Positions 1 through 37,987 of a DNA stretch of 57,495 bases are shown here, piece after piece. Both the position numbers and the translations under genes were made by a program. Numbering within the stretch: position 1 is the first letter of the stretch; every line of letters begins with the position of its first letter. Source of the stretch: Actinomycetes bacterium (GTDB lineage: Bacteria; Actinomycetota; Actinomycetes; S36-B12; UBA5976). The notes beneath the pieces were generated by a model. The model saw only the letters and a list, made by a program, of their open reading frames with translations, was not told the origin of the DNA and made no database searches. The stretch lies in the NCBI GenBank assembly GCA_021814565.1, contig JAKAIC010000002.1, forward strand, positions 1-57,495. Reading direction: 5' to 3'.

Positions 1-1586
1 TGCGGCGTGGCGCCCGCGCGCACCCGAGCATGGACCCGCTGCAGCAGCGCCCGCAGCGACTCGAAGGCCAGCGCGCCCGGCACCTCATCGGCGAGCTCGA
101 GTGCCGGCTGCGCGGCCGAAAGCGCCAGGGCGAGCGCCATGTCACTCGGCGTACGACGATCGCTGCGGAGCAGACGGGAAAGCGAGCGGACCTCACTGGC
201 GTCCAGCCCGCACATGGCCGAGACCACCAACTCGTGGGCATGTGCCGGCTCCAGCCGCAGTTCGGGCGCGGATACCGCATCCAGTGCACGCAACAGCACC
301 CGAACCGCCGGTTGCTCGGTGAGCCGGCCGCTGCGGACGTCTACCAGGCAGGGAATGCCCGCTCGCTGCAGCGCCCGTTCCACGGTACGCAGCGCGCCCG
401 CCGAGCGCGTCATGACGGCGAACTCCTCCCAGCCATCGCCGGTCTCGGAACGCAGTGCGCGAATGGCGGCCACGGTGTGCGCGGCCTCTGATGAGGCATC
501 GTCGTAGAGCTGCACCCGCACCTCGGTGTGGCGCGGCTGGGAGCGAAAGCGCCGGTGCACCTCGGCGGCTGCGACGGGCAGCACCGTTGGCACCGCCGCA
601 CCGAAGGTGGCAGACGCGAAATCCAGCAACGAGGCGGCGAAGCGATGACCGAGATCCAGGCTGAACACCTGCACCTCGCCCTGGCCAAGGGCCACGGCCA
701 TGGGCTGGAAATCCGTGCGGAAGCGGCGGATGTTCTCCACCTGGGCACCGCGGAAGGCGAACACCGACTGGTCAGGATCGGCCGCCGCCACCACGCTCTC
801 AACGTGGTTCGAAAGGGCGCCCAGCAGTGCCGCCTGCATGGCATCGGATTCCTCGTATTCGTCCACATAGACGAAACGCAGGCCCGCGAGCAGGGAGGCG
901 TTGGCGGGATCATGCAGTATTCGCAGGGCCCGGAACATGAGCTCCGCATAGTCGAGCGCCCGCTGCTGCTCCTGGCTTTCGAGGTAGGCGTCCAGCACGG
1001 GGCCGATGGCGGTCCAGGCGAGGTCGTCAGCCTTGCGGCCGAAGGCGGTGATCTCGTCGCCGGCCAGCCCCAGCGAGCGAGCAGCAGCGAAGGCTGCACG
1101 CGCCTCCTTGGCAAAGCCGCGGGTGGAGACCGCCTCGAGCAACTCGCTGGGCCAGGCGCCCTGCAGTGCCGGCTCCCGCAGGGTGCCTTCGATGACATCG
1201 CGCACCGCATGTTCCTGCTCGGCTCCAGACAGCAGGCGCCAGGGCTCATCGGGAGATGCAAGACGGGTAACCAGCGCCAGGGCGAAGGCGTGAAAGGTCG
1301 TGACGCGGACGGCGGCCCGTCCAGGGGCGCGGGTGGTGAGGTGTTCACGCAGGCGAGCGGCCGCATCACGCCCACGGGCCAGTACGAGCACGGAATCGGC
1401 GGCCGCACCTTCCGCCAGCCGGGCCAGGGCGGACTCCATGATGACCGTGGATTTCCCGGTGCCCGGTCCGCCGACGACCAGCGCGGGCCCAGAGGCCCAG
1501 GCCACGGCACGCCGTTGTACCGGGTCCAGGACGGGTGCCGGCGGGGTGGGCACGGGGGGCGCCAACTGCCAGGTGTGCCGGGTCAT
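1..1586 (-). CDS. UvrD/REP-superfamily DNA helicase, AdnA-like (3' end outside window)
   Basis: The N-terminal 528 residues of a superfamily 1A helicase are present; the rest lies beyond base 1. A Walker A motif GGPGTGKST sits at about residues 39-47, and the Walker B/motif II region reads VDEYEE near residue 240, where the family usually has DExQD. I read one continuous frame from the ATG to the window edge. The upstream neighbours (moeZ, then TetR-DUF3107-DEAD helicase) match the setting of mycobacterial adnA, which with adnB encodes an end-resecting helicase-nuclease dimer, so AdnA is the best specific guess; a plain UvrD paralog is possible because the diagnostic RecB-like nuclease domain is not in view. 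The ATG lies 6 nt from a TACCGT hexamer, so the mRNA is probably leaderless. Confidence 0.85.
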   Translation of the reverse strand, partial: MTRHTWQLAPPVPTPPAPVLDPVQRRAVAWASGPALVVGGPGTGKSTVIMESALARLAEGAAADSVLVLARGRDAAARLREHLTTRAPGRAAVRVTTFHAFALALVTRLASPDEPWRLLSGAEQEHAVRDVIEGTLREPALQGAWPSELLEAVSTRGFAKEARAAFAAARSLGLAGDEITAFGRKADDLAWTAIGPVLDAYLESQEQQRALDYAELMFRALRILHDPANASLLAGLRFVYVDEYEESDAMQAALLGALSNHVESVVAAADPDQSVFAFRGAQVENIRRFRTDFQPMAVALGQGEVQVFSLDLGHRFAASLLDFASATFGAAVPTVLPVAAAEVHRRFRSQPRHTEVRVQLYDDASSEAAHTVAAIRALRSETGDGWEEFAVMTRSAGALRTVERALQRAGIPCLVDVRSGRLTEQPAVRVLLRALDAVSAPELRLEPAHAHELVVSAMCGLDASEVRSLSRLLRSDRRTPSDMALALALSAAQPALELADEVPGALAFESLRALLQRVHARVRAGATP

Positions 1587-1592
1587 GTCCAG

Positions 1593-1615
1593 ACGGTACC
1601 GAGCGGGTCCGACAA
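1593..1615 (-). promoter_or_regulatory. RecA-NDp-type (PafBC-class) promoter of the AdnA-like gene
   Basis: On the minus strand the sequence is TTGTCGGAC, 8 nt, then TACCGT, against the mycobacterial DNA-damage promoter consensus TTGTCRGTG-N8-TAnnnT. The last two bases of the first block differ. The -10 hexamer ends 6 nt before the ATG. The match is by eye and the role is inferred from the motif and the repair-gene target. Confidence 0.6.
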
Positions 1616-36295: not shown

Positions 36296-36865
36296 CTACT
36301 CCAGCATCTCGTCACCCTGAAGTGAACTGCGCACGACCTCGAAGGCCAGGCTGGAATTGAACCCCTTGCGTATGAGCATGTTGGCCAGCCGGCGGGTTCG
36401 CGCCTGCGGATCCAAACCAGCGGTTGCGGGCAGTCGCTTGTGCACCAGCGAACTGGCCAGGGCTCGATCGTCCTCGACATCGATGGTCGAGAGCTCGTGG
36501 TCGATGAGTTCAGCGCTGATGCCCTTGGCGCGAAGTTCCTGTGCCAGCACGCGCGGTGCCAGGCCGCGCGAGGCACGCCGCGATCGCACGTAGAGCTCCG
36601 CGTATTCGGCATCATTCACGAGGCCCACCTCGACCATGCGGTCAAGCACCTGACCCGCGACCTCATCGGGAATCCCCTTGGCCGCCAAGGCTTCTGCCAG
36701 TTGCGCCCGGGACTGCGGCGCACGCGTGAGCCGACGCAACACGATATTTCGAGCCGCGGTGGCGGGGTCTGCCTCGCCGATGGATGAAGGGTCTACCCCG
36801 AGGTCCGGCGCAGACCCTTCATCCTCGAAGATCTGTCTACGCGTCGATGGGCGACGACTCTTCAA
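36296..36865 (-). CDS. recX: Recombination regulator RecX
   Basis: This 189-residue protein matches RecX, which binds RecA filaments and limits their activity. Three-helix repeats are visible ([23 protein letters not shown], then the [17 protein letters not shown] block). The only sensible start is a TTG at 36865, which overlaps the recA 3' end by 29 bp, similar to the recA-recX overlap of mycobacteria. A GTG further in would cut the first repeat. The first 35 residues are a non-conserved extension whose DNA contains a strong hairpin. Confidence 0.9.
36782..36824 (-). promoter_or_regulatory. 13-bp hairpin just after recA stop, inside recX 5' coding region
   Basis: Perfect 13-bp arms GGATGAAGGGTCT (36782-36794) and AGACCCTTCATCC (36812-36824) enclose a 17-nt loop, starting 12 nt after the recA stop on the minus strand. 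No U-tract follows, so it could be an attenuator, an mRNA stability element or a translation brake on recX. Confidence 0.7.
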
Positions 36866-37877
36866 CCTTCACTCCCACACCGAGCGCGGTCTTGATGGCT
36901 GTCTCGATCTCGGTTGCCAGATCCGGGTTGTCACGAAGGAACTGCCGGGCGTTCTCCTTGCCCTGGCCGAGTTGATCTCCGTCGTAGGTGTACCAGGCTC
37001 CCGCCTTGCGCACGATGCCATGATCGACGCCCATGTCGATGAGCGACCCCTCGCGGCTGATGCCCTCGCCGTAGATGATGTCGAACTCAGCCTGCTTGAA
37101 GGGCGGTGCCACCTTGTTCTTCACGACCTTGACACGGGTGCGATTGCCCACCACTTCCTGGCCGTCCTTGAGCGCTTCAATGCGGCGAATGTCCAGGCGA
37201 ACAGAGGCATAGAACTTGAGTGCCTTGCCGCCCGTGGTGGTCTCGGGGTTGCCGAACATGACGCCGATCTTCTCGCGCAACTGGTTGATGAAGATGCAGG
37301 TGGTCTTGGAATTCGAGAGTGCCCCGGTGATCTTGCGCAGCGCCTGGCTCATGAGGCGCGCTTGCAGACCGACGTGGGAGTCACCCATTTCGCCTTCGAT
37401 TTCCGCTCGCGGCACCAGCGCGGCCACCGAGTCGATGACAATGAGGCCGATGGCACCGGAACGGATGAGCATGTCGGCGATCTCGAGTGCCTGCTCGCCT
37501 GTGTCGGGCTGACTCACGAGCAGCGCGTCGATGTCGACGCCCAGCTTCTTGGCATATTCGGGATCAAGAGCGTGCTCGGCATCGATGAATGCGCAGATGT
37601 CTCCGGAGCGCTGGGCGTTGGCAATGGCATGGAGTGCCACGGTGGTCTTGCCTGAGGACTCCGGGCCATAGATCTCGATGACACGTCCCCGCGGCAGACC
37701 GCCGATACCGAGCGCCACATCGAGCGCGATGGAACCGGTGGGGATGAACTCCATGGGTGCACGGTTCTCATCACCGAGACGCATCACCGAGCCCTTGCCG
37801 AACTGCCGTTCGATCTGTGCGAGTGCTGCATCGAGCGCCTTCGCGCGATCGTTGCCGGGTGTGGTGCTGGGTGCCAT
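36837..37877 (-). CDS. recA: Recombinase RecA
   Basis: This is a 346-residue RecA with Walker [30 protein letters not shown] and the DNA-binding region [16 protein letters not shown]; no intein interrupts it. ATG 37877 follows AAGGAGC. Upstream lie two DNA-damage elements, a LexA box and a RecA-NDp-type promoter. It is co-transcribed with recX. Confidence 0.99.
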
Positions 37878-37913: not shown

Positions 37914-37936
37914 ACCATAGGCAGGGCCACTGACAG
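37914..37936 (-). promoter_or_regulatory. RecA-NDp-type (PafBC-class) proximal promoter of recA
   Basis: Minus strand: CTGTCAGTG, 8 nt (GCCCTGCC), TATGGT. Consensus TTGTCRGTG-N8-TAnnnT is matched at all but the first base. The -10 is 36 nt from the ATG, leaving a short leader with the AAGGAG site. Confidence 0.75.
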
Positions 37937-37964: not shown

Positions 37965-37987
37965 ATGGTAGTCGAACACCTGTTCGA
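37965..37987 (-). promoter_or_regulatory. LexA SOS box and distal -10 of recA
   Basis: TCGAACACCTGTTCGA on the plus strand (37972-37987) is a perfect 6-4-6 palindrome matching the actinobacterial/Gram-positive SOS box. On the minus strand it is directly followed by TACCAT (37965-37970), so LexA would occupy the spacer of this distal promoter. Confidence 0.85.

Follow-up and report, generated by a model that had tools for sequence, protein, structure and literature searches.

The adnA locus and its promoter

The window analyzed here, namely the whole stretch of 57,495 nucleotides, begins within a minus-strand gene (3..1586) that is cut by the contig start and codes for an AdnA-like helicase of the UvrD family. 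The 528 readable residues match PF00580 with 128 bits, i.e. the N-terminal UvrD-type helicase motor is present, and the counterpart in the sister genome (G001) aligns with query residues 1-528. The closest PDB entry by sequence is 6ppj chain A (residues 31-489, 92.8 bits; the best DNA helicase II entry scores 72.4), deposited merely as 'ATP-dependent DNA helicase (UvrD/REP)', which we take to be the AdnAB of M. smegmatis, a mycobacterium. Most of the uncut homologs in related genomes have open frames of more than 1000 residues. The PF00580 and 6ppj matches bear out an earlier reading of this DNA made from the sequence alone, which had placed an AdnA-like helicase behind the promoter described below. 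Divergently oriented to this gene is one for a lysylphosphatidylglycerol-synthase-like membrane protein (PF03706; 1660..4044, plus strand, start codon inferred).

Ahead of the adnA ATG (1586-1584) the minus strand contains, at 1615-1593, the site TTGTCGGAC-N8-TACCGT. In full it reads TTGTCGGACCCGCTCGGTACCGT, which can be split as TTGTCGGAC CCGCTCGG TACCGT and is followed by CTGGAC and the ATG. Its constituents are the hexamer TGTCGG, a PafBC-type -26 element (1609..1614, minus strand); the -10 element TACCGT, of the form TAnnnT and separated from the former by N10 (1593..1598, minus strand); and the 6-nt gap CTGGAC that leads to the start codon (1587..1592, minus strand). The site thus fits the pattern TGTCRG-N10-TAnnnT of actinobacterial RecA-NDp/PafBC promoters in both the element and the spacer, and the sequence-only reading was right both in assigning it to a RecA-NDp-like class and in placing its -10 exactly 6 nt from the ATG. 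With TAnnnT at -12 to -7, the predicted transcription start would be the A of the ATG itself, and TGTCGG would lie at -28 to -23, in agreement with the -26 motif that is contacted and bound by PafB (PMC11804915).

The window contains a single match to TTGTCRG-N10-TAnnnT, that at the adnA site, against 0.01 expected from 100 shuffles. The RecA-NDp motif has been written as tTGTCRgtg-8-TannnT (PMC5656591); at bases 8-9 the adnA site has AC and not the weak, lower-case tg of this 2004 consensus. As tg does not belong to the M. tuberculosis motif definition given in PMC8151990, these bases are not defining, and AC is likewise seen in many recA promoters of one related family (f7). A scan of positions 1400-1800 returned no sigma-70-type promoter, and the 200 nt ahead of the adnA motif contain no SOS-type box. 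An ordinary -35/-10 promoter was considered and rejected: the gap between TTGTCG and TACCGT is 11 nt, which is too short, and the promoter scan was empty.

The recA locus

The second repair locus of the same motif class, as had been claimed, is that of recA (36837-37877, minus strand; TIGR02012, 579 bits), downstream of which lies recX (36296..36865, minus strand). The RecA-NDp/PafBC-type motif of recA, TGTCAGTGGCCCTGCCTATGGT (37914..37935, minus strand), reads TGTCAGTG-N8-TATGGT and conforms to the strict pattern TGTCRG-N10-TAnnnT; the base preceding TGTCAGTG is C, so that the site departs at one position from the longer pattern TTGTCRGTG-N8-TAnnnT. At a distance of 36 nt upstream of the motif there is a LexA (SOS) box, TCGAAC-N4-GTTCGA, without mismatches (37972..37987, minus strand). 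The genome also codes for LexA, with SOS-type boxes within the lexA locus. The sequence-only reading had seen in the two loci, 36 kb apart, the sign of a LexA-independent damage regulon. The motif is indeed found at both, while no meaning could be seen in their spacing; independence from LexA fits adnA, which lacks an SOS box within 200 nt upstream, but is only partial at recA on account of the perfect box and the LexA encoded in the genome.

Genome-wide distribution of the motif

The source genome (G000; 2.0 Mb in 156 contigs, 97.7% complete) was searched with the strict motif TGTCRG-N10-TAnnnT, and the reversed pattern served as a control for both counts and start-codon offsets. The strict motif occurs 15 times and the reversed pattern 8 times. 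Eight of the 15 sites precede DNA replication or repair genes or gene runs, a class assigned after the matches had been seen: 1) recA; 2) adnA; 3) dnaE, with an uncertain GTG start 53 nt further on; 4) dnaX; 5) a UvrD/PcrA-like helicase; 6) a DEDD exonuclease that also has a UvrC-like part; 7) rpsF followed by ssb; 8) a HAD hydrolase gene with tlyA, nadK and recN behind it in the same orientation, all assumed to form a single transcript (recN scores 398.6 bits against a cut-off of 407.9). The binomial chance of 8 in 15 is 2e-7 if 5% of the genes are assumed, rather than counted, to belong to this class. Other sites precede ssrA, i.e. tmRNA (C44:418-439, L133; the gene begins 18 nt past the motif), a Clp ATPase gene, an hsdM-like type I methylase subunit, two DUF222 genes (C38:9447, L132; and C123:2317, L140, the latter weaker) and an open reading frame of about 70 residues that contains cysteines and has no family match in G000 (C48:15289, L135); the site on contig C6 has no gene assigned to it. 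SOS-type boxes accompany only the recA and C6 sites among the 15.

The census thus does not refute the enrichment at repair genes that the sequence-only reading had proposed as a check. Its proposal of a damage regulon also agrees with the eight loci held in common with the sister genome (see below) and with the presence of PafB and PafC genes. As a sequence-based reading, a LexA-independent damage regulon in this genome is therefore supported, but it is not a new regulon, since it would be the RecA-NDp/PafBC regulon, in which AdnAB has been reported for both M. smegmatis and M. tuberculosis.

In both G000 and G001 (C117:49097, L193) ssrA is directly preceded by the strict motif, an arrangement that would tie ribosome rescue to DNA damage. 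The small cysteine-containing frame is found behind a strict motif in three genomes, namely G000, G001 (L170) and G012 (L179), and in the first two it is divergent from the DEDD exonuclease.

Predicted leaderless layout of motif-bearing genes

The distance between motif and start codon was examined at 45 sites (15 of G000, 18 of the 21 of G001 and 12 of G012), with frames that were still open at the locus end being included, one of them just 10 codons long. At 16 of these sites the final T of the -10 element is followed by an ATG at a distance of 6 or 7 nt, as against 20 for the other 59 offsets between 0 and 60 combined (p ~1e-17). None of the 8 reversed-pattern control sites passes this test, though one has an ATG/GTG triplet at 7 nt. 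Given this placement, leaderless transcripts are to be expected from such promoters, and the tight distance between motif and start codon provides a simple rule for finding genes of this kind.

Conservation in related genomes

The sister genome contains 21 strict motifs and no reversed ones, whereas G012 has 12 and 10, respectively. Across 59 genomes there are 805 strict against 545 reversed matches, with the strict motif being more frequent in 38, less frequent in 15 and equally frequent in 6. Counts set against the reversed pattern are in themselves a weak test, and the excess is weak or absent in many relatives; hence the argument relies on where the motif lies and on which genes follow it. 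Comparison of the 15 sites of G000 with the 18 of 21 examined in G001 recovered eight common loci: dnaE, the UvrD-like helicase, the exonuclease, the gene stretch beside the exonuclease, recA, adnA, the HAD gene (in G001 preceded by a 100-residue frame without a family match) and ssrA. In seven of the eight pairs only 3-9 of the 20 positions just upstream of the motif are identical, the exception being adnA with 12 of 20. A further gene, radA (TIGR00416), has the strict motif in G001 and G012 and is not among the 15 of G000.

Genes related to adnA were found in 92 of 119 genomes, and the upstream side was examined at 70 of them. At 58 of the 70, an in-frame ATG or GTG is preceded at 25-33 nt by a TGTC-type element (TGTC[AGT][GC] or NGTCRG), compared with 4-10 of the 70 for each of seven windows at other distances; several starts were tried per gene, in all windows alike. 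The 70 loci are related to each other, and a small number of the 58 will be chance occurrences. The remaining 12 loci have no TGTC-type element at this distance. The -10 element of adnA is TACCGT in the genus of the source genome, with the hexamer being identical in the sister genome, and varies elsewhere: TAGTTT or TAGAGT in genus g6, TGGAAT in genus g5 and TAnnnAT in family f6, so that TAnnnT is not matched in the adnA promoters of many relatives. Most adnA promoters of genus g5 (L070-L078, L080-L090) take the form TGTCA[CG]-N7-TGG-TGGAAT, with an extended -10, and often have a purine-rich stretch directly before the ATG. Among 80 further adnA-like loci from a wider set of genome contigs, many of them Streptomyces, the strict motif was found at none and a looser form at 9; a few Nocardioides- or Kribbella-like adnA loci, read by eye, show TGTCGG with a variant -10.

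The gene for recA was found in 104 of the 119 genomes. In the 50 upstream regions examined, the strict motif is present in 44 and absent from 6, and a LexA box of the GAAC-N4-GTTC type is present in 48.

The PafBC regulator

Contig C155 of the source genome encodes PafC (PF19187, 118 bits) and PafB (a WYL protein) in tandem, with genes for the proteasome ATPase, Dop and PafA upstream of them. Each of the two proteins resembles one half of 6sj9, a PafBC structure determined for an Arthrobacter protein (PMC6789036), and together they account for all WYL (PF13280) matches in this genome. In family f4 the helix-turn-helix model of PafC (PF19187) gave no match in any of 8 genomes, and the motif is present in all five recA regions examined there. 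WYL pairs occur in six of the eight (in tandem in G045, G053, G061, G065, G069 and G073), which indicates that the apparent absence of PafC is mostly a limit of the model; the PafBC of this family seems, from its sequences, to be strongly diverged. Of the other two genomes, G050 has one WYL match, and G057 has none and yet bears motifs at recA and adnA. The use of f4 as a natural experiment on the loss of PafC was dropped in view of the WYL pairs.

Multi-copy DUF222/HNH genes

Some relatives contain many near-identical copies of the motif, and five of the six frames tested behind such copies in G048, G055 and G063 match DUF222 and/or HNH. DUF222 was sought in 12 genomes, of which the 7 with complete motif lists were compared. 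These yielded 54 DUF222 matches, not including two more that were second pieces of one frame. In 45 of the 54 the 5' side was taken to be readable, including minus-strand ones near a contig end that were accepted without a check. In 19 of these 45 a strict motif in the same orientation lies no more than 700 nt upstream, as against 0.14 expected, with the copies within a genome not being independent of each other. By genome the motif-bearing fraction is 10/16 in G048, 4/7 in G063, 3/10 in G055, 2/4 in G000, 0/5 in G051, 0/2 in G001 and 0/1 in G059. The motif-bearing genes include those at L132 and L140 in G000 and at L291, L298, L302, L304 and L305 in G048, G055 and G063, and in several cases the ATG lies 6-7 nt past the -10 element.

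The open-licence literature yielded no paper joining DUF222, HNH and DNA damage. DUF222 presumably corresponds to the 13E12 repeat family of M. tuberculosis. Genes of that family have been reported to be regulated by LexA (PMC5005354, PMC4181829), which makes them a likely parallel, with DUF222/HNH genes in multiple copies behind a DNA-damage promoter, though the promoters seen here are of the NDp/PafBC type. We tentatively raise the possibility that PafBC runs a largely leaderless damage program that comprises resection, recombination, dnaE/dnaX, ssb, tmRNA and also DUF222/HNH genes, the latter under PafBC rather than LexA. If so, DNA damage would switch on a mobile-looking nuclease family in several actinobacteria via a different regulator; in any case the link marks a gene family that is worth testing for a role in the damage response.

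Proposed mechanism and alternative explanations

We consider it highly probable that the adnA site is a promoter of the RecA-NDp class under the control of PafBC, that adnA has a leaderless start, and that the same promoter class serves recA and a group of genes for replication and repair. On the mycobacterial precedent, DNA damage would give rise to single-stranded DNA, which would be bound by the PafB/PafC heterodimer; PafBC could then dock on TGTCGG, centered near -26, together with the housekeeping sigma factor, acting as a sigma adapter. RNA polymerase would need no -35 element to initiate from the TACCGT -10, and the first transcribed base of adnA would be the A of its start codon, so that the mRNA would be leaderless. 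By the same promoter class, recA (additionally provided with its LexA box) and the other replication and repair genes would be driven, and AdnA, the helicase for resection, might thereby rise together with the recombinase RecA. The motif sequence, its conservation, spacing and genome-wide placement, and the genes for PafB, PafC, RecA and LexA are observed directly in these genomes. A joint, damage-triggered switch-on of the motif-bearing genes is very likely by analogy with mycobacteria, from which activation by single-stranded DNA, sigma adaptation and induction are all carried over.

That the adnA motif is a chance near-match in a GC-rich genome, devoid of a regulatory role, might be argued from the 44 occurrences of the long consensus with up to 3 mismatches in the window (27 expected) and from several relatives in which motif and reversed-motif counts are about the same. 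However, the exact match is expected only 0.01 times per window, position and sequence are kept across families at both adnA and recA, and the ATG is sharply concentrated at 6-7 nt past the -10, so that on position and conservation we set this explanation aside as very improbable. A constitutive, leaderless sigma-A promoter with an extended -10, at which TGTC is a generic upstream contact and PafBC has no part, would account for the leaderless layout, for the TG noted by eye one base ahead of the -10 in the adnA promoters of many relatives, for the motif sites that precede genes without a clear link to repair, and for the motifs of G057, where no WYL gene was detected. Against it, TGTCRG-N10-TAnnnT is the mycobacterial signature of PafBC (PMC8151990), 8 of the 15 sites in the source genome lie at replication or repair genes, and WYL pairs are present in six of the eight f4 genomes despite being missed by the PafC model; we accordingly hold it to be improbable.

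ClgR controls Clp genes, and the Clp ATPase gene among the motif sites of the source genome could be taken to mean that the motif is read by a regulator of this kind. ClgR was indeed once reported to bind the motif in M. smegmatis, a claim cited in PMC5656591, but later in vivo binding and structural data assign the motif to PafBC (PMC6789036, PMC11804915), and control by another regulator such as ClgR is thus extremely unlikely.

Comparison with known damage-response systems

The closest known system is the mycobacterial RecA-NDp/PafBC regulon, which shares with the present one the pattern TGTCRG-N10-TAnnnT, the location of PafB and PafC beside pafA, a recA gene with both a LexA box and an NDp motif, and AdnAB and SSB as targets (PMC8223512, PMC8151990, PMC5656591). 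PafBC control of AdnAB has been reported in M. smegmatis (PMC8223512) and in M. tuberculosis, where AdnAB and SSB are upregulated by PafBC and the variants TGTCGG, TGTCAG and TGTCAC-N10-TAnnnT are described (PMC8151990). The present case differs in its lineage, in the adnA promoter lying exactly 6 nt before the ATG and in having AC rather than tg at bases 8-9. Strict sites are also seen here at dnaE, dnaX, ssrA and DUF222 genes, which may or may not be mycobacterial targets; PMC8151990 mentions neither dnaE1 nor dnaX in its main text. The LexA/SOS regulon resembles it in the lexA gene with SOS-type boxes in its locus and in the perfect box at recA, and is unlike it in that adnA has no such box within 200 nt upstream of its motif.

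The promoter class is stated to extend to other Actinobacteria in the review PMC8223512. In Streptomyces, RecA-NDp promoters are described for recA and for SCO6735 (PMC5087735), i.e. the same class occurs outside mycobacteria before a UV-inducible gene; the account in PMC5087735 ties no regulator to the promoter, whereas in the present genome the regulon is seen along with the PafBC genes. A 2022 study found the M. smegmatis motif not to be conserved in S. venezuelae and left open whether such a response exists there (PMC9380542). Although the PafBC system itself is already known, the lineage, the leaderless layout and the link to multi-copy DUF222/HNH genes are new, and the genomes considered here provide evidence, at the sequence level, of a complete PafBC damage regulon, with both regulator and targets, in a lineage far from the mycobacteria.
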